Shown here one piece after another: positions 37,512 to 53,140 of a stretch of 64,000 bases of DNA. The translations under genes and the position numbers were made by a program. The notes beneath the pieces are model-generated. The model ran no database searches. It had not been told where the DNA came from and saw only the letters and a program-made list of their open reading frames with translations. Source of the DNA: Streptomyces sp. SCSIO 30461 (GTDB lineage Bacteria; Actinomycetota; Actinomycetes; Streptomycetales; Streptomycetaceae); NCBI RefSeq assembly GCF_037023745.1, contig NZ_CP146101.1:5844001-5908000 (forward strand), in the 5' to 3' direction. Numbering within the stretch: position 1 is the first letter of the stretch; each line of letters starts with the position of its first letter.

Positions 37512-37519
<8 letters not shown>
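36059..37519 (-). CDS. gltD: Glutamate synthase small subunit
   Basis: 486-residue beta subunit of NADPH-dependent glutamate synthase; it supplies electrons from NADPH to GltB. The N-terminal iron-sulfur region has [16 protein letters not shown] and CPAPCEAAC, the FAD site is [14 protein letters not shown] near residue 146, and the NADPH site is [14 protein letters not shown] near residue 287; the C-terminal [16 protein letters not shown] closes the FAD domain. Length matches the family (480-490). It overlaps gltB by 8 bp and is followed by a terminator. Confidence 0.97.
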
Positions 37520-42143
<4,624 letters not shown>

Positions 42144-42498: not shown

Positions 42499-43227
42499 TC
42501 ATATCGCGGCCCCGACCAGGGATCCGACCCCATAAGTGAGCGCCGCGGCGGCGCCACCGAGCGCCAGCTGCCGCAGTCCGCTGAACCACCAACCGCGGGC
42601 CGTCACCCGGGCGACGAGCGCACCGCAGGCGAACAGGCCGATCAGCGCGCACAGCACGGCGGGCCACAGGGCGGTGGCGCCGAGCAGGTACGGCAGCACC
42701 GGCACCAGAGCACCGAGGGCGAACGAGGCGAAGGACGAGACTGCGGCGACGGCAGGCGACGGCAGGTCGTCCGGGTCTATGCCGAGCTCCTCACGGGCGT
42801 GGATCTCCAGCGCCTGCTCGGGGTCGCGGGAGAGCTGTACGGCCACCTCGCGGGCGAGGCGCGGCTCCACGCCGCGCGCCACGTAGAGGGCGGCGAGCTC
42901 CTCCATCTCGTCCACCGGGTGCTTGCGCAGTTCCCGGCGCTCGACGTCCAGCTCGGCCTGGACGAGCTCGCGCTGCGAGGCCACCGATGTGTACTCGCCG
43001 GCCGCCATCGAGAAGGCACCCGCCGCGAGTCCCGCGAGGCCGGTGATGACGATGACCTGCTGGGAGACGGCTCCACCGGCGACACCGGTCATCAAGGCGA
43101 GGTTGGAGACAAGCCCGTCCATGGCCCCGAACACCGCGGGACGCAGCCAGCCGCCGTTCACGTCGCGGTGCGTGTGGTTGTCGCGGTGCGCCTCGTGAAG
43201 TGCGGCCTCGGTCTCGATGATGGACAC
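42499..43227 (-). CDS. VIT1/CCC1-family iron/manganese transporter
   Basis: 242-residue membrane protein. Five hydrophobic segments are visible; the first part has GAMDGLVSNLALMTGVAGG and MAAGEYTSVASQREL, the conserved vacuolar-iron-transporter signatures, followed by a cytoplasmic metal-binding helix pair rich in Glu (LVQAELDVERRELR, EMEELAALYVARGVEP) between the second and third segments. It likely exports Fe2+ or Mn2+. A His-rich N-terminus (HEAHRDNHTHRDVNGG) may bind metal. It is next to gltB, as in other streptomycetes, with no obvious functional tie. Confidence 0.9.
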   Translation of the reverse strand: MSIIETEAALHEAHRDNHTHRDVNGGWLRPAVFGAMDGLVSNLALMTGVAGGAVSQQVIVITGLAGLAAGAFSMAAGEYTSVASQRELVQAELDVERRELRKHPVDEMEELAALYVARGVEPRLAREVAVQLSRDPEQALEIHAREELGIDPDDLPSPAVAAVSSFASFALGALVPVLPYLLGATALWPAVLCALIGLFACGALVARVTARGWWFSGLRQLALGGAAAALTYGVGSLVGAAI

Positions 43228-43353: not shown

Positions 43354-44442
43354 ATGAGGCCATCTGGCGGCGCACCGGGCGGCGCACGTGGCAAGCATCC
43401 AGAACAGACTCGGATGCGGGGTGACGCGTTGGAGTGCATCTCATGCGACCGGGCCCGCGGCGCACTGCTCGGACTGGCCGTCGGCGACGCGCTCGGCGCG
43501 CCCGCCGAGAACCTGCGGCCGTCCGAGATCCGCCGCCGCTGGGGACGGATCGAAGGTTTCGTGACCGACAACCCGACGGGCACGGACGACACCGAGTACG
43601 CGATCTTCTCCGGGCTGCTGCTGGCCAGGCACGGCTCCGCGCTGACCATCGCGCATGTCGAGAGCGCCTGGCACCGCTGGATCGCCGACCTCGACGAGGG
43701 CCCGTTCCGAGGCGCGGGCTTCAGCGAGCGGGGCACCCTGGAGAACCTGCGGCGCGGTCTGGCGGCCCCCATCACGGCCCAGCACCGGCACGCCTGGAGC
43801 GACGGCCTCGCCATGCGCGCGGCTCCGTTCGGCGTGTTCGCGGCGGGCGACCCGGCGGAGGCGGCGCGGCTGGTCGCGATCGACGGTCGCGTCAGCCATG
43901 ACGGCGAGGGCATCTACGGCGGCCAGGCCGTCGCGGCGGGGGTCGCGGCGGCGATGGCAGGCGCCGGACCCGCCGGGGTCATCGGCGCCGCGCTGTCCGT
44001 GGTCCCGATGGACTCCTGGACGGCGCGCTCCATGCGCCGCGCGGTGATCGCGGCGGAGCAGGCCGCAGAACCCGACCCCGTGCTGCGCGAACGTGCGGTA
44101 CGGTCCGCGGTCGTCATCGGCGGCTACCCCTGGACGGACCTCGCCCCGGAAGCGGTCGGCCTGGCCTTCGGCGCTTTCGCGGCGGCCCGCGGCGACTTCC
44201 GTACGTCGGTGCTCACCGCGGTCAACATGGGTCGCGACGCCGACACCACGGCAGCGGTCGCCGGGGCCCTCGCCGGCGCGCTGTCCGGCGCCTCCGCGAT
44301 CCCCCGCGAGTGGGCGAAGGCGATCGGCCCCGTGCGCGGCAGCTGCCTCCCCTCCATGCGGGGCTACCACGTGCTCGACATCGCCGACCTACTGATCCCG
44401 GACACCGACACTGAGGCCCTGCCATGCCCCCCGGCCCACTAG
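43354..44442 (+). CDS. ADP-ribosylglycohydrolase-family protein 1
   Basis: 362 residues; cytosolic. Metal/active-site motifs of the DraG/ARH fold are all present: GLAVGDALG at residues 41-48, GTDDTEYA at 76-83, and MGRDADTTAAVAGALAGA near 292-309 (Asp295, Asp297, Thr298). Members remove ADP-ribose from proteins or cleave small N- or O-ribosyl compounds with a dinuclear Mg site. The start at 43354 gives a 32-residue lead; ATG 43414 is an alternative. It is the first of four tandem family members, overlapping the second by 19 bp. The substrate is unknown. Confidence 0.87.
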   Translation: MRPSGGAPGGARGKHPEQTRMRGDALECISCDRARGALLGLAVGDALGAPAENLRPSEIRRRWGRIEGFVTDNPTGTDDTEYAIFSGLLLARHGSALTIAHVESAWHRWIADLDEGPFRGAGFSERGTLENLRRGLAAPITAQHRHAWSDGLAMRAAPFGVFAAGDPAEAARLVAIDGRVSHDGEGIYGGQAVAAGVAAAMAGAGPAGVIGAALSVVPMDSWTARSMRRAVIAAEQAAEPDPVLRERAVRSAVVIGGYPWTDLAPEAVGLAFGAFAAARGDFRTSVLTAVNMGRDADTTAAVAGALAGALSGASAIPREWAKAIGPVRGSCLPSMRGYHVLDIADLLIPDTDTEALPCPPAH

Positions 44443-45662
44443 ACCCCGTATCCGAGCCCACGGCCACTCCCCCGGCCACGGCACCGGACATCCGCCACGA
44501 GCCGGCCCCTGGCGGCCACGCCTGGTCCGAGCCGGCCGCCGACCTCAGGGACCGGATCCAGGGGCTGCTGCTCGGACTGGCCGCCGGGGACGCGGCGGGG
44601 TGGCCCGCCGCACGGCACCGCGCGGCCCGGATGCCGGAGTGGACCCGCCGCCTCACCCGCGAACTCGACACCTTCGCGGAGCAGAACGCGACGACGACCC
44701 TCCCTGTCCCGATCGCCCTCAACCAGGCGCCCGAACCCCTGCGGCTCGGGCCTTCGGACGACGCCGAGTGGGCCGCGTTCACCGCCGAGACGATCCTCGC
44801 CGGTGCAGCCGGCACCGGCGACGCCGACGGCGACCGGGGTGAGCTGGGCCGCCGGATGCGTGCCGCCGTGGACCTCTCCTGGAACTCCCTCGCCGGAAAG
44901 GTCGCCGCAGCCGCCGCCCGCGCCCCCGAGGTCGAGTCCGCCGTACTCCCGCTGCGTGCCCGGATCTCCGTACGCGCCGGGCTCGGCAACCTCGCCACCG
45001 GTCTGCGTCCGCCCGCGACCGGCCACGACAATCCGCACTACTTCGACGACGCCGCGTGCGTCCGCGCCGCCGTACTCGGCGCCGTCCATCCCGGCGACCC
45101 GCGAGCCGCCGCCGAACTCGCCGAGTTCGACGCCCGCTACACCCAGGACGGCGACGGGGTGCACGGCGCCCGCGCGATGGCCGCGGCGATCGCGGCGGCA
45201 CTCGGCGGGGCGACCGTGCGGGCGGCAGTCGATGCGGCGCTCGCGGAGCTTCCCGAGGTCACCGAGGTCGGCCGCAACGCGCGGCACGCGGTCAAGCTCG
45301 CCCGGGACGCGGACGACGCGTTCTCCCTGGTCCCCCTGCTGGAGCACCAGATCGTGGACCACGTCTACAGCTACGGCGTCGCCGCGGCTGAGACCGTCCC
45401 GGTGGCCCTCGCCCTCGCGACGGCCGCCCGCGGGCAGGTCGCTTCGGCGATCCCCGCGGCGGCCTGCCTGTCCCGGGTGGCCGACTCCGCTCCGGCCCTC
45501 GCGGGTGCGCTGACCGGCGCGTTGGGCGGTGGGGCCGCGGTGCCCACCACATGGCGCGACGCCTGCCGAACCCTCGCAGGCTGCGCCCTCCCCCACCTCG
45601 CGGACACGGACCTCGTCCCCCTCGCGGAACACCTCGCCGACGTGGTGTGCCGCGCCCGGTGA
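44424..45662 (+). CDS. ADP-ribosylglycohydrolase-family protein 2, altered metal site
   Basis: 412 residues. The fold is recognisable (GLLLGLAAGDAAG at 47-59; SDDAEW at 111-116), but the C-terminal metal loop that reads GRDADT in its neighbour is CLSRVADSAPALAGALTGAL here (348-367), keeping one Asp (354) and losing the others. The N-terminal TDDT is also SDDA. It may be a pseudoenzyme or a regulatory subunit, or it may use different chemistry. The first 40 residues are a Pro/Ala-rich extension. It overlaps gene 1 and is followed by a 177-bp gap with a hairpin before gene 3. Confidence 0.78.
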   Translation: MPPGPLDPVSEPTATPPATAPDIRHEPAPGGHAWSEPAADLRDRIQGLLLGLAAGDAAGWPAARHRAARMPEWTRRLTRELDTFAEQNATTTLPVPIALNQAPEPLRLGPSDDAEWAAFTAETILAGAAGTGDADGDRGELGRRMRAAVDLSWNSLAGKVAAAAARAPEVESAVLPLRARISVRAGLGNLATGLRPPATGHDNPHYFDDAACVRAAVLGAVHPGDPRAAAELAEFDARYTQDGDGVHGARAMAAAIAAALGGATVRAAVDAALAELPEVTEVGRNARHAVKLARDADDAFSLVPLLEHQIVDHVYSYGVAAAETVPVALALATAARGQVASAIPAAACLSRVADSAPALAGALTGALGGGAAVPTTWRDACRTLAGCALPHLADTDLVPLAEHLADVVCRAR

Positions 45663-45738
45663 ATCCCGGGGGCGGTTCGCACGGTCGGTGCGGTTCGTAC
45701 GGTGTGCCGCGCCGCGGGTCCGAACGGTGTGGCACCCG

Positions 45739-45765
45739 CGGTGCACCGCGTGGCGCGGTGCACCG
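45739..45765. terminator. Hairpin between ADP-ribosylglycohydrolase genes 2 and 3
   Basis: CGGTGCACCGCG and CGCGGTGCACCG are perfect 12-bp arms with a TGG loop, and each arm contains the palindrome GGTGCACC. It lies 77 bp past gene 2 and 75 bp before gene 3. It may end the first transcript or act as an operator for the genes after it. Confidence 0.45.
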
Positions 45766-45839
45766 CCCGGCCACGTCACCCGCCGACGCGAGGCGCGGCA
45801 CACCCCGGATCGGGGCCACCCGGGGTGGACAATTCCGAC

Positions 45840-46991
45840 ATGACACTCTCCCTTGAGGACCGCCTCACCGGCGCCCTCCTCGGCGCTGCGGTCGGTGACG
45901 CACTCGGCGGGCCGGTCGAGGGCTACACACCGGAACAGATCACGGAACGCCACGGAGGGCGGGTCCACGGCATCGTCGGCCCCTGGCACGGCGCCGACTG
46001 GCCGACCGCCCGCCCCATCGCCCCGTACCACAAGGGCGATGGGCACATCACCGACGACACCCTGATGACCCACGCCCTCGTACGGGTCTACACGACGGTG
46101 CGCGACCACCTCGACGCGTACGCCGTCGCCGAGCACCTCGTACCCGATCTGATCGGCACACCGCGCTGGATTCCCGAACTGGAGGCCGAGGCGCTGCCGG
46201 TCCAGCGGATCTTCCTTGCCGAGAAGTGGCTCGTGGCTCGGCTGCACTACGGGCACATCGACCCGCGCGAGGCGGGCAACGGCAACATCGTCAACTGCGG
46301 TGCCGCGATGTACATGGCACCGGTCGGCCTGGTCAATGCCGGAAATCCCGCCGCCGCCTACGCCGAGGCGCTGGATGTCGCGGGTGCCCACCAGTCCTCG
46401 TACGGCCGTGAGGCCGCGGGGGTCTTCGCTGCGGCGGTCGCCGCGGCCTGTGTGCCGGGGGCCGGTCCTGGCGGCGTCGTGGACACCTGTCTCGCACTCG
46501 CCAAGGACGGCACCCGCGCCGCGATCGAAGCCGTCGCCGAAGTCGCGGCCGCCTACCGCGACTTCGAGCCCGCGCTGCGCCCGCTACGGGAGGCCGTCGC
46601 GCCCTTCGACACGGTGGGTCCCGACTACCGCGCGCCGTCCCTCGGCGCCCGCAGACCGTCGCGGCTGCACGCGATCGAGGAGCTGCCGATCGCGCTGGGG
46701 ATGCTGCTGGTCGGGGACGGCGACTACCGCCGTACGGTACTCGGCTCCGTCAACTACGGCCGCGACTGCGACTCCATCGCCACCATGTCGGGCGCCATCG
46801 CGGGGGCGCTGCACGGCGCGGAGCCGATCCCGACCGCATGGGCGAAGGCCGTCGCCGAAGCCAGCCGAGTGGATCTGCACGCTCCCGCCCGGGAACTGGC
46901 GGAGGTCGCCCGGGAGGTGTTCGCCCGGGACAAGGAGCGCCGCCGTGCCCATGAGGCGGCCTTCGCCGCGCTGACGGACGCCGCCCGGTGA
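45840..46991 (+). CDS. ADP-ribosylglycohydrolase-family protein 3
   Basis: 383 residues. Conserved motifs are GAAVGDALGGPVEG at 15-28, HITDDTLMTHAL at 69-80, and NYGRDCDSIATMSGAIAGAL at 305-324 (Asp309, Asp311, Ser312 in place of Thr). Helices between carry NGNIVNCGAAMYMAPVG. It starts at an ATG (45840) and overlaps gene 4 by 4 bp (GTGA). The variant CDS of the C-terminal loop (Ser in place of Thr) is also seen in hydrolases of small ribosyl compounds. Probably catalytically competent. Confidence 0.88.
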   Translation: MTLSLEDRLTGALLGAAVGDALGGPVEGYTPEQITERHGGRVHGIVGPWHGADWPTARPIAPYHKGDGHITDDTLMTHALVRVYTTVRDHLDAYAVAEHLVPDLIGTPRWIPELEAEALPVQRIFLAEKWLVARLHYGHIDPREAGNGNIVNCGAAMYMAPVGLVNAGNPAAAYAEALDVAGAHQSSYGREAAGVFAAAVAAACVPGAGPGGVVDTCLALAKDGTRAAIEAVAEVAAAYRDFEPALRPLREAVAPFDTVGPDYRAPSLGARRPSRLHAIEELPIALGMLLVGDGDYRRTVLGSVNYGRDCDSIATMSGAIAGALHGAEPIPTAWAKAVAEASRVDLHAPARELAEVAREVFARDKERRRAHEAAFAALTDAAR

Positions 46992-48385
46992 ACCTGCGGC
47001 TCACCTGGGTCCAGCCCGAGGACCTGGTCGGCCATGAGTTGCGCCAGGCCGCCGAGGACGGGCGGGACGTCTCGGAGATCGCCGGGCGCTGGCGAGCCGC
47101 GGGCGGCCCCGACGCCCCTCCGGCGGCGGGCGCGTCCGCGGTCCCCGCCGAACCCCGTCTCCGCTCGCTGGCCCTGCTGCTCCTCGACGAACTGGACTCG
47201 CTGCCCTCCCCGTCCGCGCGGAACGAACCGGCCTCGCTGGCGGGGATCATCGCCGCCTGCCCCGACTGGCCGGGTGTGACACCAGCGGAAGGCGGACCGA
47301 CGAGCCTCACCGACCGCCTGCATGCAGCCTGGCTCGGCCGCGCTGCCGGCTGCCTGCTGGGCAAACCCGTCGAGAAGCTGCCCCTCGCCGGTATCCGCGC
47401 ACTGGCCCGCGCCGCGGGCAACTGGCCGCTCGACGGCTGGTTCACCGCCAAGGGCGTTCCCCCGGAGCTGCTCGCCGCCCACCCCTGGAATCGCAGGTCC
47501 GCGCCGACCTCTCTCGCCGAGAACATCGACGGGATGCCCGAGGACGACGATCTGAACTATCCACTGCTGAACCTGCTCCTCCTGCAGCGGTACGGAGACG
47601 GCTTCTCCACCGCCGACGTCGCCCGGCTCTGGCTGGACGAACTCCCCGCAGCCCGTACCTTCACCGCCGAGCGCGTCGCGTACCGCAATCTGCTCGCCGG
47701 GCTGGAACCCCCGCTCACCGCCACTCACCACAACCCCTTCCGGGAGTGGATCGGCGCCGCGATCCGGGCCGACGTGCACGGCTGGACCCGTCCGGGCGAC
47801 CCCGCGACCGCCGCGGCCCAGGCATACCGGGACGCGGCCCTCACCCATACCGCCAACGGGGTGTACGGCGCGATGTTCACCGCCGCAGCGCTCGCCGACG
47901 CCGCGACGGGCCGGGCTGATGTGCACCGGTGTCTGCGCACGGGGCTGCGGGTCGTGCCGCCCGGGTCGCGGCTGGCCGGGGCGATCCGCACCGGGATCGG
48001 GACCGCCCAGCGGTATGCCGACTTCGACACGGTGGTGGACCGGCTTCACGCCGCGTACGGCGGGTACCACTGGGTTCATGTCGTCCCCAACACCGCCCTG
48101 CTGTGCGCGGCCCTCACCCATGCCGACGGGGACTTCGTCGGCTCCGTCTGCCGGGCCGTCTCCGGTGGCTGGGACACCGACTCCAACGGCGCCACCGCCG
48201 GCTCGCTCGCCGGGCTGCTCGCCGGGCATCCTGACCGGCTGCCCGAGCGGTGGACCACCCCGCTCAGAAACCGGCTGGCCACCACCGTCGGCGGCTTCGA
48301 CGGCATCGGTTTCGACACCCTCGCCCGGCTCACCGCCGACCACGTCGCACGAGCCCCCATCCCCCAGGAGGACGTTCGCGCATGA
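46988..48385 (+). CDS. ADP-ribosylglycohydrolase-family protein 4 with N-terminal extension
   Basis: 465 residues from a GTG overlapping gene 3. The first 105 residues form an extra helical region (LVGHELRQAAEDGRDVSEIA) with no domain I know. Then the fold: WLGRAAGCLLGKPVE at 115-129, MPEDDDLNYPLL at 183-194 (an acidic TDDT variant), and SGGWDTDSNGATAGSLAGLL at 392-411 (Asp396, Asp398). The WDTDSNGATAG form marks a separate subfamily from genes 1 to 3. It overlaps the PfkB kinase gene as ATGA, so the kinase and this enzyme are made together. Confidence 0.87.
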   Translation: MNLRLTWVQPEDLVGHELRQAAEDGRDVSEIAGRWRAAGGPDAPPAAGASAVPAEPRLRSLALLLLDELDSLPSPSARNEPASLAGIIAACPDWPGVTPAEGGPTSLTDRLHAAWLGRAAGCLLGKPVEKLPLAGIRALARAAGNWPLDGWFTAKGVPPELLAAHPWNRRSAPTSLAENIDGMPEDDDLNYPLLNLLLLQRYGDGFSTADVARLWLDELPAARTFTAERVAYRNLLAGLEPPLTATHHNPFREWIGAAIRADVHGWTRPGDPATAAAQAYRDAALTHTANGVYGAMFTAAALADAATGRADVHRCLRTGLRVVPPGSRLAGAIRTGIGTAQRYADFDTVVDRLHAAYGGYHWVHVVPNTALLCAALTHADGDFVGSVCRAVSGGWDTDSNGATAGSLAGLLAGHPDRLPERWTTPLRNRLATTVGGFDGIGFDTLARLTADHVARAPIPQEDVRA

Positions 48386-49293
48386 CCGGCATCGTGGTGC
48401 TCGGCAGCACCAACATGGACCTCGTCGCCTATGCCCCCAGGGCGCCCAGGCTGGGCGAGACCGTCACGGGACGCGAGTTCCGCACCATCCCCGGCGGCAA
48501 GGGCGCGAACCAGGCCATCGCCGCCGCCCGTGCGGGTGCCGATGTGTCGATGATCGGGGCCGTGGGCTCGGATGAGTTCGGTGCCCGGCTGCGGGACACC
48601 CTGGAGCACTCCGGGGTCGACACCGATCTGCTGCGCACCGTCGACACCGCCTCCGGTACGGCGCACATCGTCGTGGACGACGAGGGCGGCAACGCGATCG
48701 TCGTCATCCCGGGCGCCAACGGCACCGTGGATCATCTCACTCCCGGAGACGAGGCCGTGATCGCCGCGGCCGACGCGCTGCTGCTCCAGCTCGAACTGCC
48801 GCTCGCCGGAGTGCTCGCCGGAGCCGAGGCGGCCCGGCGCCACGGGGTGCGCACCATCCTCACCCCGGCCCCCGCACAGCCCCTGCCGCCCGAGCTACTC
48901 GCGGTCGTCGACCTGCTGGTGCCGAACGAGCACGAGGCGGCCCTACTCGCCGCAACGGCCGACCCGCACGCCGCCGCCGACGCCCTGCTGCGCCAGGTGC
49001 CCGAGGTGGTCGTCACGCTGGGCGCCGAAGGCAGCCTCCATCTGGCCCGTGGCGCCGAGCCGGTGCGGGTGCCCGCGCCGCGGGTGCGCACGGTCGACAC
49101 GACGGCCGCGGGCGACACCTTCGTGGGCGCCCTGACGGTGGCCCTGGTCGAGGGCAGGCCGATGCACGAGGCGATGGTCTGGGCATCGGCCGCCGCCGCC
49201 CTCTCCGTGCAGCGTCAGGGCGCCTCGTCCGCCATGCCCACCCGCCCGGAGATCGACAAGGCCGTGGACGGGGGCGCCGCCCCGGGCCGCTGA
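48382..49293 (+). CDS. PfkB-family sugar kinase (ribokinase-like)
   Basis: 303 residues. The N-terminal motif PGGKGANQAIAAARAG at about residues 38-53 and the C-terminal DTTAAGDTFVGAL (anion hole and catalytic Asp) define a PfkB kinase; NMD near residue 12 is the sugar-binding Asp typical of ribokinase. It would phosphorylate ribose or a nucleoside. Four-base overlap with ADP-ribosylglycohydrolase 4 is a strong hint of a shared pathway, in which a hydrolase frees a ribosyl unit and the kinase traps it. E. coli has an analogous hydrolase/kinase pair, yegU-yegV. Confidence 0.92.
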   Translation: MTGIVVLGSTNMDLVAYAPRAPRLGETVTGREFRTIPGGKGANQAIAAARAGADVSMIGAVGSDEFGARLRDTLEHSGVDTDLLRTVDTASGTAHIVVDDEGGNAIVVIPGANGTVDHLTPGDEAVIAAADALLLQLELPLAGVLAGAEAARRHGVRTILTPAPAQPLPPELLAVVDLLVPNEHEAALLAATADPHAAADALLRQVPEVVVTLGAEGSLHLARGAEPVRVPAPRVRTVDTTAAGDTFVGALTVALVEGRPMHEAMVWASAAAALSVQRQGASSAMPTRPEIDKAVDGGAAPGR

Positions 49294-49355
49294 AACCGAC
49301 GCCTCTCACCGGGCCGTGTCCGACCCAGCAGCCGCCGATGGAGCTTGGAGCCCTC

Positions 49356-50588
49356 ATGCACGACCCCGACGCCGACGGTGTCACCGCCCCTCACCCCGCC
49401 GGGGACGGTCCGCTCGCCGGGCTGCGCGTCCTCGATGTCGCCACCCTCTTCGCCGGGCCGCTCGCCGCCACGATGCTCGGCGACTTCGGCGCCGAGGTCA
49501 TCAAGGTCGAGCACCCGGCCAAACCGGATCCCTCCCGCGGGCACGGACCCGACAAGGGCGGAGTCGGCCTGTGGTGGAAGCTGCTCGGACGCAACAAACG
49601 CGCCATCACCCTCGATCTGTCCACGCCCGGTGGGCGCGAGACGCTGCTGCGGCTGGTCGCCACGGCGGACGTGGTCATCGAGAACTTCCGCCCCGGCACC
49701 CTGGAGAAGTGGCGGCTCGGCTGGGACGAGCTGAGCGCCGTCAACCCCCGGCTGGTACTCGCCAGGGTCACCGCCTTCGGGCAGTTCGGGCCGTACTGCC
49801 ATCGTCCAGGCTTCGGCACCTTGGCCGAGGCGATGAGCGGATTCGCCGCCATCACCGGTGAACCCGAAGGACCGCCGACCCTGCCTCCCTTCGGTCTGGC
49901 CGACTCCATCGCGGCCCTGGCCACCTCGTACGCCGTGATGACCGCGCTCACCGCGCGTGCCACGTCCGGTCGCGGTCAGGTCGTGGACATGGCGATCATC
50001 GAACCGATCCTCACCGTGCTCGGCCCTCAGCCCATCTGGTTCGACCAGCTCGGGTATGTGCAGCCGCGCACCGGCAACCGCTCCCGCAACAACGCCCCGC
50101 GCAACACCTATCGGACGGCCGACGGGGCCTGGCTCGCGGTCTCCACCTCGGCCCAGTCCGTCGCCGAACGGGTGATGCGGCTGGTCGGGCGGGCCGAGCT
50201 GACACACGAGCCGTGGTTCGCCACCGGCAGCGGCCGGGCCGAGCACGCCGACGTACTGGACGAGGCGGTGGGCGGCTGGATCGCCCGGCACTCCCGTGCC
50301 GAGGTACTGGCGGCGTTCGAGCAGGCGGAGGCCGCGGTGGCGCCCGTCTACGACGTCCGGGACGTGATGGCCGACCCCCAGTACACCGCGCTGGACGCCA
50401 TCACCGAGGTGCCCGACCCCGAGCTGGGACCTATCCGGATGCAGAACGTGCTCTTCCGGCTCTCCGCCACTCCCGGCCGGATCCGCTGGGCGGGCCGACC
50501 GCACGGCGCGGACACGGACGCCGTGCTCGGCGAGCTCGGGCTGACGCCCGAGCGGATCGCCGCGCTGCGCCGCCAAGGCGCGCTGTGA
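49356..50588 (+). CDS. Family III CoA-transferase (CaiB/BaiF type)
   Basis: 410 residues from ATG 49356, which has GGAG at a 5-bp spacing; ATG 49338 is also in frame. Motifs are LRVLDVATLFAGPLAATMLG (N-terminal beta-alpha unit), DFGAEVIKVEHP, the catalytic Asp in GQVVDMAIIEP, and the C-terminal helix region. It moves CoA between carboxylic acids. It follows the kinase by 62 bp and is coupled to a CoA-ester lyase, so together they can activate and cleave a hydroxy-acid such as malate- or citramalate-like compounds. Whether this belongs to the same pathway as the upstream hydrolases is not shown. Confidence 0.9.
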   Translation: MHDPDADGVTAPHPAGDGPLAGLRVLDVATLFAGPLAATMLGDFGAEVIKVEHPAKPDPSRGHGPDKGGVGLWWKLLGRNKRAITLDLSTPGGRETLLRLVATADVVIENFRPGTLEKWRLGWDELSAVNPRLVLARVTAFGQFGPYCHRPGFGTLAEAMSGFAAITGEPEGPPTLPPFGLADSIAALATSYAVMTALTARATSGRGQVVDMAIIEPILTVLGPQPIWFDQLGYVQPRTGNRSRNNAPRNTYRTADGAWLAVSTSAQSVAERVMRLVGRAELTHEPWFATGSGRAEHADVLDEAVGGWIARHSRAEVLAAFEQAEAAVAPVYDVRDVMADPQYTALDAITEVPDPELGPIRMQNVLFRLSATPGRIRWAGRPHGADTDAVLGELGLTPERIAALRRQGAL

Positions 50589-51469
50589 GAACGCCCCAGG
50601 GCGATGCCGCCTCCTTCGCCACCACCGTCGCCGCTGATGCCTTCGTCACTCCCACCACCCTCATGACCCCCGAAACGACCCCGCTCACCTGGTTGTACGC
50701 GCCGGGCGACCATCCCGACGTCGTCCACAAGGCGCTCGGCTGCGGCGCCGACGTCGTGATCGTCGACCTCGAAGACGCGGTCCCGCCCGAACGCAAGGCG
50801 TACGCCCTCGCCGCGACCGCCGAACTACTCGCCTCCTCCCAGCCCGTGCCCGTCCATGTCCGGATCCACGCCGAACGGGACATCCCGGCGCTGGCCGGGC
50901 TGCCCGGGCTGGCCGCTCTGCGCATTCCGAAGGTGACACACCCCACTGACATCCTGGGTCCGGCGTCGCTCGCCCCGGGCACCGGGCTGTACGCCCTGTT
51001 GGAGTCCGCGTCCGGGGTCGAGCACGCCTACGCCATCGCGACCGCGACGCCCGCGGTGCACGGCATCGCGCTCGGCGAGGCCGATCTGCGTGCCGACCTC
51101 GGCGTACGGGACGACCGTGGGCTCGACTGGCCGCGCAGCCGCATCGTGGTCGCGGCACGCGCTGCCGGGCTCGCGCCGCCGTCGCAGTCGGTGTTTCCCG
51201 ACATCCGCGATCTGGACGGCCTGGCGGAGTCCTGCGCCCACGGCCGAGCCGTCGGCTTCCTGGGCCGTGCGGCGATCCATCCGCGGCAGCTCGCGGTCAT
51301 CGAGCGTGCGTATCTGCCGAGTCCCGAGGAGGTGGAGCAGGCGGAGGAGATCGTCAAGGCGGCCGAGACCGACGCGGGGGCGCTGGCCCTTCCGGACGGC
51401 CGCTTCGTCGATGCCGCGGTGGTGGCGACGGCGCACCGCACGCTCTCCCTGGCCCGCCGCGGCGCCTGA
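50585..51469 (+). CDS. CitE-like CoA-ester lyase (HpcH/HpaI family)
   Basis: 294 residues from the GTG that overlaps the transferase stop (GTGA); an internal ATG at 50663 (MTPETTPLTWLYAPGD) is also a good start and matches relatives better. TIM-barrel aldolase-type lyase: YAPGD, VIVDLEDAVPPERK (Mg-binding Asp/Glu), ALLESASGVEHA (second Glu ligand), GEADLRADLG and GFLGRAAIHPRQL. It would cleave a malyl- or citramalyl-type CoA ester to acetyl-CoA and an oxo acid. Together with the transferase it makes a succinct acid-degradation pair. Confidence 0.9.
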   Translation: MRTPQGDAASFATTVAADAFVTPTTLMTPETTPLTWLYAPGDHPDVVHKALGCGADVVIVDLEDAVPPERKAYALAATAELLASSQPVPVHVRIHAERDIPALAGLPGLAALRIPKVTHPTDILGPASLAPGTGLYALLESASGVEHAYAIATATPAVHGIALGEADLRADLGVRDDRGLDWPRSRIVVAARAAGLAPPSQSVFPDIRDLDGLAESCAHGRAVGFLGRAAIHPRQLAVIERAYLPSPEEVEQAEEIVKAAETDAGALALPDGRFVDAAVVATAHRTLSLARRGA

Positions 51470-51594: not shown

Positions 51595-52563
51595 TCAGCC
51601 GTTTCGAGCGGGATTCGCGTCCGACGCGTCCGTCGCGTCGGCGTGTCGGGCCTTGCCTTGGCCCGCATCCGCGGCGTCCTCGGCGTCGGCGGCGCCCTTG
51701 GGGTCGGCCGTGGAGTCGGCGTCGGCACGGTCGGCCTCGGCCGCCTCCCCCTTCGGGGGTTCCACGACCTCCTCGCGGCCGGGGCGCAGCCGCGAGGAGA
51801 CCACGATGTAGGCCACCGCGAGCGCGAAGACGATGATCGCGGTCCAGACGTTCAGCCGCAGGCCCAGGACGTGGTGCGCCTCGTCCACCCGCATGTACTC
51901 GATCCAGGCGCGACCCGCGCAGTACGCGGCGACATAGAGTGCGAAGGCGCGGCCGTGCCCGAGCTTGAAGCGGCGGTCGGCCCAGATCACGAGCAGCGCG
52001 ACGCCGACGCACCAGAGCGACTCGTAGAGGAACGTCGGGTGGTACAGGCCGGCCTCCCGGTTGACGCCCTCGCTGATCTCAAGAGCCCAGGGCAGATCGG
52101 TCGCCTTGCCGTACAGCTCCTGGTTGAACCAGTTGCCCCAGCGTCCGATGGCCTGGGCCAGGGCGATTCCCGGCGCGATGGCGTCGGCGTACGCGGGCAG
52201 CGGGATGCCCCGCCTGCGGCAGCCGATCCAGGCGCCGACGGCGCCCAGGGAGATCGCGCCCCAGATGCCGAGGCCGCCCTCCCAGATCTTGAAGGCGTCG
52301 ACCCAGTTCTCACCCTCGCTGAAATACAGCTGGTAGTCGGTGATCACGTGGTAGAGACGGCCGCCGACGAGGCCGAACGGCACCGCCCAGACGGCGATGT
52401 CGGCCACCGTGCCGGTTTTGCCGCCGCGGGCGATCCAGCGTTTGTTGCCGAGCCAGACGGCGACGAAGACACCGATGATGATGCAGAAGGCGTAGCCGCG
52501 CAGCGGTACCGGTCCGAGATGGATCACACCGGTCGACGGGCTGGGAATGTAGGCAAGGTCCAT
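51595..52563 (-). CDS. lgt: Prolipoprotein diacylglyceryl transferase
   Basis: 322-residue inner-membrane enzyme that adds diacylglycerol to the lipobox Cys. Seven hydrophobic segments; the Lgt signature is GRWGNWFNQELYG, and the essential YAFCI and GGRLYHV segments are present. ATG at 52563 gives MDLAYIPSPSTG, the usual Streptomyces start. The last 65 residues are a hydrophilic Ala/Glu/Asp tail seen in actinobacterial Lgt. Upstream, the frame stays open into the repeat array of a miniature element; that extension is not homologous and is not counted. The element sits 114 bp upstream and may change lgt expression. Confidence 0.95.
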   Translation of the reverse strand: MDLAYIPSPSTGVIHLGPVPLRGYAFCIIIGVFVAVWLGNKRWIARGGKTGTVADIAVWAVPFGLVGGRLYHVITDYQLYFSEGENWVDAFKIWEGGLGIWGAISLGAVGAWIGCRRRGIPLPAYADAIAPGIALAQAIGRWGNWFNQELYGKATDLPWALEISEGVNREAGLYHPTFLYESLWCVGVALLVIWADRRFKLGHGRAFALYVAAYCAGRAWIEYMRVDEAHHVLGLRLNVWTAIIVFALAVAYIVVSSRLRPGREEVVEPPKGEAAEADRADADSTADPKGAADAEDAADAGQGKARHADATDASDANPARNG

Positions 52564-52676
52564 GGCACCACCGACGCTACCTTGCCGGGCCGGAACCGTC
52601 GCAATCCGCCTGGCAACGTCTGGATAACGAGCAGTCGAAGGGCAGCTTCCGGCCCCTGCGGGCGGAAGCGGTCGCC

Positions 52677-53140
52677 TAAGGGCTGTCCCGTAGTCCGCAA
52701 TGGACCAGAGCGCGGCGTCAGGTGTATGGGGTCTCCCCCGGCCCTTGGGGCCGAGGTGTATGGGGTCTCCCCCGGCCCTCGGGGCCGAGGTGTATGGGGT
52801 CTCCCCCGGCCCTCGGGGCCGAGGTGTATGGGGTCTCCCCCGGCCCTCGGGGCCGAGGTGTATGGGGTCTCCCCCGGCCCTCGGGGCCGAGGTGTATGGG
52901 GTCTCCCCCGACCCTCGGGGCCGAGGTGTATGGGGTCTCCCCCGACCCTCGGGGCCGAGGTGTATGGGGTCTCCCCCGACCCTCGGGGCCGAGGGGACGC
53001 AACGCAAGGCGGAGGGTCGCCCTCATACCGGGTGTATTCGGGCGATTCGACAACGCAGCGTGGGGGCACCTCCCGGCGAAGCCGGGGGGAGTGCCGTAGC
53101 TGTCGCCGCGCGCCCGCCGGGGATTACGGGACAGCCCTTA
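52677..53140. mobile_element. Miniature inverted-repeat element, copy B, with repeat array (460 bp plus TA)
   Basis: The ends are AGGGCTGTCCCGTAGTCC (from 52679) and the complement of AGGGCTGTCCCGTAATCC (to 53138), with TA on both sides (52677-52678, 53139-53140). The interior matches copy A at 13517-13681 except for two insertions: a 272-bp array of 34-bp units (52723-52994) and a hairpin unit of about 28 bp near 53062-53095. Copy A is therefore close to the basic element and copy B is the expanded form. It lies between the thioredoxin and lgt genes. No transposase is encoded. Confidence 0.85.
52723..52994. repeat. Eight tandem 34-bp repeats
   Basis: Contiguous units begin TGTATGGGGTCTCCCCCG, at 52723, 52757, 52791, 52825, 52859, 52893, 52927 and 52961. 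Unit 1 has CTTGGGG, units 2-5 CGGCCCTCGG and units 6-8 CGACCCTCGG, so units spread by slippage from few founders. Each unit holds two small hairpins (GGGG-TCT-CCCC and GGCCC-TCG-GGGCC). Because 34 is not a multiple of three and no stop occurs in any phase, all six frames are open through it. There are no spacers, so this is not CRISPR. Confidence 0.95.

Follow-up and report, generated by a model that had tools for sequence, protein, structure and literature searches.

One described system that joins an ADP-ribosylglycohydrolase (ARH) to a kinase is the yegTUV operon of E. coli, in which overlapping genes encode a transporter, an ARH and a kinase under the repressor GgaR (PMC10819704, available text). 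The operon type described here has the same layout, but yegTUV itself contains one ARH, an MFS-type transporter and a GntR-type regulator, and neither a CoA-transferase nor a lyase. YegU is about 25% identical to ARH3, its best match in the window (the whole stretch of 64,000 nucleotides of Streptomyces sp. SCSIO 30461 that was analysed), YegV shares 23% identity with the window kinase, and YegU joins another gene of the window's genome in a quick tree (support 82, long branches). Orthology with yegUV was rejected on these grounds, and the analogy with yegU-yegV put forward in a sequence-only reading of the window survives for the layout but not for the proteins.

Another comparison is offered by the DraG, ARH1 and ARH3 hydrolases, which share the PF03747 fold with the four ARHs of the window and their binuclear metal motifs with three of them. 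The T/S-D-D and D-x-D-S/T motifs serve as metal ligands (PMC7050489, available text); according to the same text, ARH enzymes characterised to date rely on the cis 2''- and 3''-OH groups of ribose, and human ARH1 and ARH3 are alpha-selective (PMC7050489). In contrast to these hydrolases, the window-type genes lie in a catabolic operon context, miss the equivalog cut-offs and include an ARH2 that lacks one metal ligand. The rbs operon likewise has a LacI-family regulator, as do relatives of the window cluster, and a ribokinase, for which the cluster kinase exceeds the TIGR02152 cut-off; it has RbsABC, whereas the cluster importer uses an SBP_bac_1-type binding protein. A separate locus of the window's genome (L250), whose genes we named from the sequence, is presumably an rbs-like operon. 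Malyl-/citramalyl-CoA type pathways employ a class III CoA-transferase and a CitE-like lyase, and the same two families stand side by side here as in, for example, itaconate degradation with RipC. However, no hydratase gene lies between or beside CaiB and CitE in the cluster, the pair is linked to putative glycosidases and no equivalog cut-off is reached.

The sequence-only reading had described four ARH/DraG genes and a PfkB kinase gene with overlapping ends, and on this point the ORFs, the DNA and the PF03747 matches agree (Table 1); the four metal-loop motifs that it quoted are all present in the translations. The run of five genes is real but goes on with CaiB and CitE, which had been missed: CaiB starts 44 nt past PfkB, and CitE overlaps CaiB by 4 nt. 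The outermost genes, which we take to be gltB and, within the right-hand ORF, lgt, are named after that reading. Inspection of the ORF and the DNA leaves 43414 as a possible start of ARH1 in place of 43354, and ARH1 overlaps ARH2 by 19 nt. ARH3 starts at the ATG at 45840, the ORF from 45702 being an upstream extension, and ARH4 has a GTG start, a 4-nt overlap with ARH3 and an N-terminal extension of about 105 residues. The gap between ARH2 and ARH3 contains perfect 13-nt inverted-repeat arms (45738-45750 and 45754-45766) and is long for this locus, since the spacing is -20 to +116 nt in 75 of the 77 Streptomyces loci measured, against 177 nt in the window; in the other two (L045 and L086) the ARH2 frame continues to the end of ARH3.

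Table 1. Genes and other features of the locus, with window coordinates.
Feature	Position	Strand	Evidence and remarks
gltB, presumed (glutamate synthase large subunit)	37512..42143	-	ORF; conserved left flank, outside the pathway
VIT-family transporter	42499..43227	-	PF01988, E 5.3e-70; conserved left neighbour, probably outside the pathway
ARH1	43354..44442	+	PF03747; GTDDTE and RDADTT, both metal motifs intact
ARH2	44424..45662	+	PF03747; degenerate; SDD present, D-x-D loop (RVADSA) with its first Asp missing
ARH2-ARH3 gap, 177 nt	45663..45839		inverted repeats; long for the locus
ARH3	45840..46991	+	PF03747; ITDDTL and RDCDSI, both metal motifs intact
ARH4	46988..48385	+	PF03747; PEDDDL and WDTDSN, both metal motifs intact
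PfkB kinase, ribokinase-type	48382..49293	+	TIGR02152 above cut-off; ATGA coupling to ARH4
CaiB/BaiF-like class III CoA-transferase	49338..50588	+	PF02515, E 1.1e-121
CitE-like CoA-ester lyase (HpcH/HpaI)	50585..51469	+	PF03328, E 2.8e-25
ORF containing presumed lgt (prolipoprotein diacylglyceryl transferase)	51595..53007	-	conserved right flank, outside the pathway

All four ARH proteins match PF03747 far above its cut-off (E 5e-59 to 6e-34; 118 to 201 bits against 26.2), and the metal-binding Asp residues are all retained in ARH1, ARH3 and ARH4 in every alignment row scored. The two ARH1 motifs are conserved in 90/90 and 91/91 rows, and the final Ser/Thr of D-x-D-S/T is Cys in five rhizobial ARHb proteins. 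ARH2, by contrast, is missing the first D-x-D Asp in all 96 ungapped rows, and the ARH2 of L160, with GENIE and RNAAS in place of the two motifs, has lost more than one Asp. In the tree, ARH2 is the sister clade of ARH1 (support 91), ARH3 clusters with rhizobial ARHa and ARH4 with rhizobial ARHb (support 100 each). The enzyme genes are under purifying selection, with median dN/dS values of 0.17-0.28 (against 7-10 loci). CaiB scores above the PF02515 cut-off (406.9 bits) and reaches no NCBIfam equivalog cut-off; the CitE-like lyase passes PF03328 at family level, and its best NCBIfam match is RipC, although it stays below the cut-offs of both RipC (132.4 against 375) and CitE (105.8 against 443). 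The kinase belongs to the PfkB family (profile search, E 1.2e-65) and is of the ribokinase type: it exceeds the cut-off of the ribokinase equivalog TIGR02152 (314.9 against 299.65), the stricter NF008353 cut-off (341) being missed at 272.8; it is about 41% identical to the other RbsK-like kinase of the same genome.

Within Streptomyces, 80 named loci were compared, the best 80 of 589 by similarity to ARH4, so that the presence of ARH4 among them is given by construction. CaiB and CitE both occur in 80/80 of these best-matching loci, whereas the kinase is found in 49 and absent from 31. ARH1 is missing in 10/80 and ARH2 in 3/80, mostly at contig ends; L062, however, has ARH2 without ARH1, VIT or gltB although its sequence reaches 6.7 kb further upstream. 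ARH4 terminates in ATGA in all 49 kinase-bearing loci and in 29 of the 31 kinase-less ones, and in 30 of the latter 31 the projected CaiB start lies at -75 to +53 nt. Kinase presence requires at least six changes on a quick tree, and a single origin of the kinase-less loci was rejected (one-clade topology, p-AU 1.4e-49). The kinase is thus dispensable and the least conserved enzyme of the cluster, CaiB-CitE being more constant. Outside these 80 loci, the pair is missing downstream in L150 and from the 25 kb covered of L199; in L143, CaiB, CitE and the kinase are all absent from the remaining 1.9 kb of the contig. The position beside gltB/VIT and lgt is conserved in many Streptomyces but not in all, and the block is not core in this genus, contrary to what had been proposed: 62 of 245 genomes of the order have no ARH4 match at 1e-20, and among 17 cluster-negative Streptomyces examined the site is empty in 10 and carries remnants in 6. 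These 17 come from 20 listed of the 62, with two lacking a VIT match and one with VIT at a contig edge left out.

A survey of all 36 non-Streptomyces genomes of the class that match ARH4 found the same gene cluster in 29, the other seven having distant ARH homologues only (L162-L164, L173, L175-L177); extra paralogue loci (L166-L172, L178, L179, L181, L182) were left out of the counts. The association of the ARH genes with a ribokinase-type kinase is thereby conserved well beyond Streptomyces. CaiB and CitE are present in 27/29 clusters, and a LacI regulator, two permeases and a binding protein, forming a CUT1 importer, also in 27/29, the contigs of the other two beginning inside the cluster. 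The importer proteins are of the SBP_bac_1 and BPD_transp_1 types, usual for oligosaccharides and glycosides, and the profiles closest to the binding protein are of the MalE and chitin types, far under cut-off. A predicted LacI-type 12-mer operator, its pattern chosen post hoc, lies upstream of 25/25 lacI genes tested and of no other cluster gene. L160 has the same genes in a different order. In 16/29 clusters a protein of about 640 residues with an FGE domain is added, whose first 430 residues gave no Pfam match in the four proteins scanned and no convincing solved relative (best E 0.088); its AlphaFold model is poor (pLDDT 54.5), and the Foldseek matches to GH13/GH27 (TM-scores around 0.2) give only a hint of a resemblance. 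The window cluster consists of enzymes only, without importer or LacI regulator: the operator occurs on neither strand of the 64-kb window and in 0/67 Streptomyces VIT-ARH1 gaps, and the importer binding protein has no close match in the window's genome (best 25%).

Conservation extends across phyla to a reduced version on plasmids of rhizobia and their relatives, with ARH3- and ARH4-type genes, importer, LacI and often CaiB. In the 14 of 20 Hyphomicrobiales plasmid records examined, LacI, importer, ARHa and UgpC are present in 14/14, ARHb in 12/14, CaiB in 8/14 and CitE in 7/14, and the operator of the actinobacterial clusters in 0/14. Rhizobial ARHb is longer by about 350 residues, and of two proteins scanned one gave a Laminin-G match below threshold (E 0.17). 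A ribokinase stands in line only in L197; L256 has a complete one upstream on the opposite strand, and L195 has a fragment of 65 residues. Since six of these 14 loci lack CaiB and the ribokinase occurs in none of them together with CaiB, alternatives fit better than one fixed pathway.

The LacI regulator and sugar importer outside Streptomyces shift the idea from ADP-ribosyl removal to the breakdown of an imported glycoside, and we consider it probable, though far from certain, that the window block represents the enzyme part of an operon for glycoside catabolism and does not serve protein de-ADP-ribosylation. Where the gene set is fuller, a single operon under a LacI repressor would include a CUT1 ABC importer that takes up a small sugar conjugate. 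ARH-fold enzymes may then cut furanosyl, most likely alpha-ribosyl, linkages intracellularly, ARH1 working together with its degenerate sister ARH2, and ARH3 with ARH4; the ribokinase would phosphorylate the ribose set free, the CoA-transferase would activate the carboxylic acid remaining after cleavage, and the CitE-like lyase would cleave the CoA ester to give an acyl-CoA plus a 2-oxo acid. The pathway probably releases ribose and a carboxylic acid. The earlier proposal of ARHs and a ribokinase-type kinase in a multi-step pathway holds in that the two occur together beyond Streptomyces, but it was incomplete, given the inconstant kinase, the steadier CaiB-CitE pair and the ligand missing from ARH2. 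As the Streptomyces cluster is without importer, regulator and operator, its substrate would have to be made inside the cell or enter in another way; we infer that Streptomyces lost the importer, rather than never having had it.

The four ARH genes are probably orthologous to S. coelicolor SCO2028-SCO2031, an assumption based on locus numbers and gene order. In print, the latter are candidate ADP-ribosyl hydrolases, their operon context not being discussed in the available text (PMC5087735, PMC13036486, PMC9411070), and the available part of PMC5036795 has SCO2028 only as a primer and insert name. Accordingly, four DraG/ARH enzymes reversing ADP-ribosylation of proteins or nucleic acids would be the conventional reading, and the fold, the metal sites, the inclusion of SCO2028-SCO2030 among potential ADP-ribose protein hydrolases (PMC5087735) and the listing of SCO2028-SCO2031 as uncharacterised DraG/ARH homologues (PMC9411070) speak for it. 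We regard it as quite improbable, because the clusters elsewhere contain a LacI regulator, operator and sugar importer, and because it offers no evident role for a ribokinase, CoA-transferase and lyase; the DraG equivalog TIGR02662 (cut-off 337) is missed by far (ARH1 80.0, ARH3 58.5), as is that of the Tri1 immunity hydrolase (NF041672, cut-off 490, best 56.6), and purified SCO2028 and SCO2030 had no detectable activity on uracil-alpha-ADP-ribose, one linkage only (PMC13036486).

Salvage of nucleoside- or NAD-derived ribosyl groups, with a nucleoside, ADP-ribose or ribosylated base as substrate, is suggested by the yegTUV names and is somewhat unlikely in our view. Another ARH of the window's genome (L247) would fit it, adjoining genes that look NadR-like and PnuC-like by their first residues. 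So would the overlapping order of transporter, ARH and kinase in yegT-yegU-yegV, YegT being a predicted nucleoside symporter (PMC10819704). However, the window genes are not yegUV orthologues, and neither CaiB-CitE nor the large FGE-domain protein has an evident place in such a route. The SBP_bac_1 and BPD_transp_1 importer, of types generally associated with oligosaccharides and glycosides, also argues against it. The ARHs might instead act on a non-ribose furanoside, with the ribokinase-like enzyme phosphorylating that sugar, as the Laminin-G-like extra residues, the possibly GH13/GH27-like protein (low-confidence model) and the MalE- and chitin-type profiles may hint; this appears unlikely, since the kinase exceeds a ribokinase cut-off and the characterised ARH mechanism relies on ribose hydroxyls (PMC7050489). 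That independent genes are merely kept in a conserved chromosomal region could account for the equally conserved flanks gltB and lgt within Streptomyces and for the piecemeal losses, but it is very hard to reconcile with a set found in other families, reordered in L160, standing in L062 without gltB/VIT beside it, partly carried on alphaproteobacterial plasmids and joined by 4-nt overlaps.

Glycoside catabolism thus stays our preferred reading, and the operon type looks common to soil, plant-associated and freshwater bacteria. In the literature available to us, nothing was found that joins an ADP-ribosylglycohydrolase with an ABC transporter and LacI, and no description of the operon was found. 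More tentatively, and as a possibility that we hold with less than even confidence, this ARH/DraG branch could have become a set of glycoside hydrolases that act inside the cell, in active/degenerate and active/active pairs, on an undescribed natural conjugate of a ribose-like sugar and a carboxylic acid. Rhizobia and actinobacteria, small-genome freshwater lineages among the latter, would import this conjugate and split it into pentose phosphate, acyl-CoA and a 2-oxo acid. The pathway recurs in rhizobia and small-genome actinobacteria, so the compound on which it acts may be widespread in the environment. The many DraG-like genes of Streptomyces have been read as pointing to lively ADP-ribosylation (PMC5087735, available text); the window's genome has seven, four of them in the cluster. 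If these four serve a sugar-conjugate pathway, that conclusion would have to be revised, and substrate discovery could start from a pathway that offers an importer, a regulator and an operator as well as an order of enzymes open to testing. If the glycoside-hydrolase branch is real, many bacterial 'ADP-ribosylglycohydrolases' would not be ADP-ribosyl hydrolases.

The sequence-only reading had reported four ADP-ribosylglycohydrolase (ARH/DraG) genes, ARH1-ARH4, and a ribokinase-type PfkB kinase in one run, and open reading frames, profiles and the DNA bear out its coordinates, overlaps and motif words. The run stands as far as PfkB; its end had been placed two genes short, as a class III CoA-transferase (CaiB) and a CitE-like lyase come after the kinase. 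The seven-gene block, flanked by gltB/VIT on one side and lgt on the other, lies in a genome of 8.05 Mb and one contig that holds seven PF03747 matches, four of them in the block. Its enzyme genes evolve under purifying selection, with a median dN/dS between 0.17 and 0.28 in comparisons with 7 to 10 of the 10 loci chosen.

Genes of the ARH-PfkB-CaiB-CitE block (window positions)
Gene	Position	Strand	Basis
ARH1	43354-44442	+	ORF, profile match, DNA
ARH2	44424-45662	+	ORF, profile match, DNA
ARH3	45840-46991	+	ORF, profile match, DNA
ARH4	46988-48385	+	ORF, profile match, DNA
PfkB kinase	48382-49293	+	ORF, profile match, DNA
CaiB, class III CoA-transferase	49338-50588	+	ORF, profile match, DNA
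CitE-like lyase	50585-51469	+	ORF, profile match, DNA

The ARH2-ARH3 gap (45663-45839) exceeds those measured in other Streptomyces and contains short direct and inverted repeats, including one perfect 13-nt hairpin; in loci L045 and L086 the ARH2 frame continues to the end of ARH3, which may be a fusion of the two genes or a sequence slip. Upstream of lgt lies a 34-bp tandem repeat (8.1 copies, 99% match; 52720-52994).

A search with ARH4 across 345 genomes of the class matched 63 at 1e-15, 27 of them from the window's genus, and the region was fetched from all 36 others: 29 carry an orthologous cluster and seven hold distant ARH homologues only. The full gene order is LacI, permease, permease, solute-binding protein (SBP), ARH1, ARH2, ARH3, ARH4, PfkB, (FGE-domain protein), CaiB, CitE. 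LacI and the importer, of the CUT1 sugar type, occur in 27 of the 29 clusters (the contigs of the other two start within the cluster), PfkB in 25, and CaiB with CitE in 27, the exceptions being L150, where both are absent, and L143, where neither these genes nor a kinase is found in the 1.9 kb remaining on the contig. Nonomuraea gerenzanensis (L199), taken from the plasmid collection and counted outside the 29, has the importer, four ARH genes and the kinase, with CaiB-CitE absent from the 25 kb fetched. The arrangement varies further: L160 reads CaiB, CitE, LacI, importer, ARH3, ARH4, ARH1, ARH2, and genomes of 1.8 Mb (L161, 47% GC) and 1.3 Mb (L174, 45% GC) keep fewer ARH genes, ARH3 among them, alongside the importer, CaiB and CitE. 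A large FGE-domain protein lies between PfkB and CaiB in 16/29 clusters and shares one reading frame with the kinase in L159. This protein (L148:11548-13464 and 15 other clusters) has ~620-680 residues with an FGE-sulfatase domain at the C-terminus; its N-terminal part has no Pfam match, and a model of low confidence gives a hint of a glycosidase barrel.

Within 250 bp upstream of all 25 lacI genes tested lies a near-palindromic LacI-type operator (12-mer G[GT]AA[AG]CGNTT[ACT]C). It is missing upstream of every other cluster gene, with 15 to 28 copies of each gene tested, and present upstream of 9/135 other genes (28 loci, including L199 and excluding L161 and L174). The pattern was picked after the palindromes had been seen, which makes the comparison with other genes the informative control. 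The operator is absent from both strands of the 64-kb window and from 67 Streptomyces VIT-ARH1 gaps, and a genome-wide search for the binding protein alone gave a best match of 25% identity; thus, the enzymes are present in the window, and this importer and regulator are absent.

Relatives of the cluster are also carried in another phylum, by Hyphomicrobiales plasmids. Of 20 such records 14 were fetched, and all 14 loci have LacI, two permeases, SBP, ARHa and UgpC, with ARHb in 12, CaiB in eight and CitE in seven. ARHa clusters with ARH3 and ARHb with ARH4 (support 100 each, quick tree), and no separate ARH1 or ARH2 orthologue was seen in the six loci searched with both; the actinobacterial operator was found in 0/14. 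A ribokinase stands in line in L197; L256 has a complete one upstream, encoded on the opposite strand, and L195 a 65-residue fragment, all three loci being without CaiB. Rhizobial ARHb (L195:13207-15306 and others) has ~350 extra C-terminal residues with no Pfam match above cut-off and, in one of two scanned, a sub-threshold Laminin-G match.

The block had also been read as core and not accessory, which does not hold: among 245 genomes searched in the order, 62 lack an ARH4 match at 1e-20, some of the matches are distant paralogues only, and both empty sites and remnants occur. Of the 20 genomes listed without the cluster, which all belong to the window's genus, 18 match VIT and 17 regions were fetched. 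Ten have VIT and lgt within 1 kb with no cluster genes between, in L239 7.4 kb of other DNA fills this interval, and pieces remain in six: PfkB alone (L229, L230), ARH3 and CaiB (L231), ARH3 alone (L232), ARH1-3 with CaiB and CitE (L233), or PfkB with part of CaiB and CitE (L236). The VIT-lgt site is conserved, and the cluster content goes piecemeal.

The window's PfkB passes the ribokinase equivalog TIGR02152 (314.9; cut-off 299.65) and does not reach the cut-off of the stricter NF008353. Among the best 80 of 589 Streptomyces loci by ARH4 similarity, ARH3, CaiB and CitE are present in all 80, PfkB in 49 and missing in 31; kinase absence together with CaiB-CitE presence indicates that the kinase is dispensable and that CaiB-CitE are the more constant partners. 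ATGA terminates ARH4 in 49/49 kinase-bearing and 29/31 kinase-less loci. Kinase presence changes at least six times on a quick tree of ARH3 and CaiB, on which a single kinase-less clade was rejected. Dispensability is perhaps explained by a second ribokinase, which the genome probably has in a separate operon that, by the sequence of its genes, we take to be rbs-like (L250, G000:C1:3502000-3516000; LacI, proteins of 530, 324 and 310 residues, kinase, 106-residue protein), its kinase being ~41% identical to PfkB.

As for the hydrolases, ARH1, ARH3 and ARH4 retain the metal-binding Asp of both motifs in all rows scored (69-80 in Streptomyces, 21-29 elsewhere), and five rhizobial ARHb have Cys in place of Ser/Thr after that Asp. 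The second motif of ARH2 lacks its first Asp in 96/96 ungapped rows, and this Asp is also missing from ARH2-like genes of greater divergence in L166, L176 and L177. ARH1 and ARH2 are sister groups (support 91, quick tree), and every ARH2 adjoins an ARH1 in the class loci, as far as their sequence extends, and in Streptomyces, with the sole exception of L062 (Streptomyces sp. MZ04), where the cluster begins at ARH2 and ARH1, VIT and gltB are absent. The genes upstream there presumably resemble purN, purH and folD, judging by first residues; either this cluster is located elsewhere or the contig is misjoined. We infer that ARH2 would act as a partner to ARH1, either non-catalytic or altered. The vertebrate member named ARH2, a separate case, is likewise suspected to be inactive (PMC7050489). 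L166, L176 and L177 have ARH1-ARH2 pairs without ARH3, oriented divergently to genes for LacI and an importer, which suggests that other operons may use the pair too; the stretch fetched for L176 ends just inside a CaiB-like gene (48 residues, 75%). Another ARH gene of the window's genome (L247, G000:C1:5361000-5376000) has neighbors that, by first residues, we take to resemble NadR and PnuC, an arrangement that suggests a tie to NAD salvage.

By locus numbers and gene order, S. coelicolor SCO2028-SCO2031 are probably the orthologues of ARH1-4. These four genes are listed as DraG/ARH homologues (PMC9411070), three of them are so named in PMC5087735, and SCO2028 and SCO2030 had no detectable activity on uracil-alpha-ADP-ribose (PMC13036486). 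Characterized ARH enzymes act through the ribose cis-diol, human ARH1 and ARH3 being alpha-selective (PMC7050489).

The idea first proposed, a pathway in which hydrolases and a kinase act together on ribosyl or ADP-ribosyl groups, is partly supported, and a different description fits better. A LacI regulator and a sugar importer, combined with hydrolases, a sugar kinase and enzymes that activate an acid and cleave C-C bonds, make a catabolic operon, and the CaiB and CitE families together activate and split 2-hydroxy dicarboxylates. In the simplest pathway predicted from these gene families, a ribose or ribose-like conjugate would be imported and then hydrolyzed by the ARH enzymes, the released sugar would be phosphorylated by the ribokinase-type kinase, and an acid would undergo CoA-dependent cleavage by CaiB/CitE. 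The block is better described as the putative enzyme portion of a glycoside-catabolic operon that is widespread.
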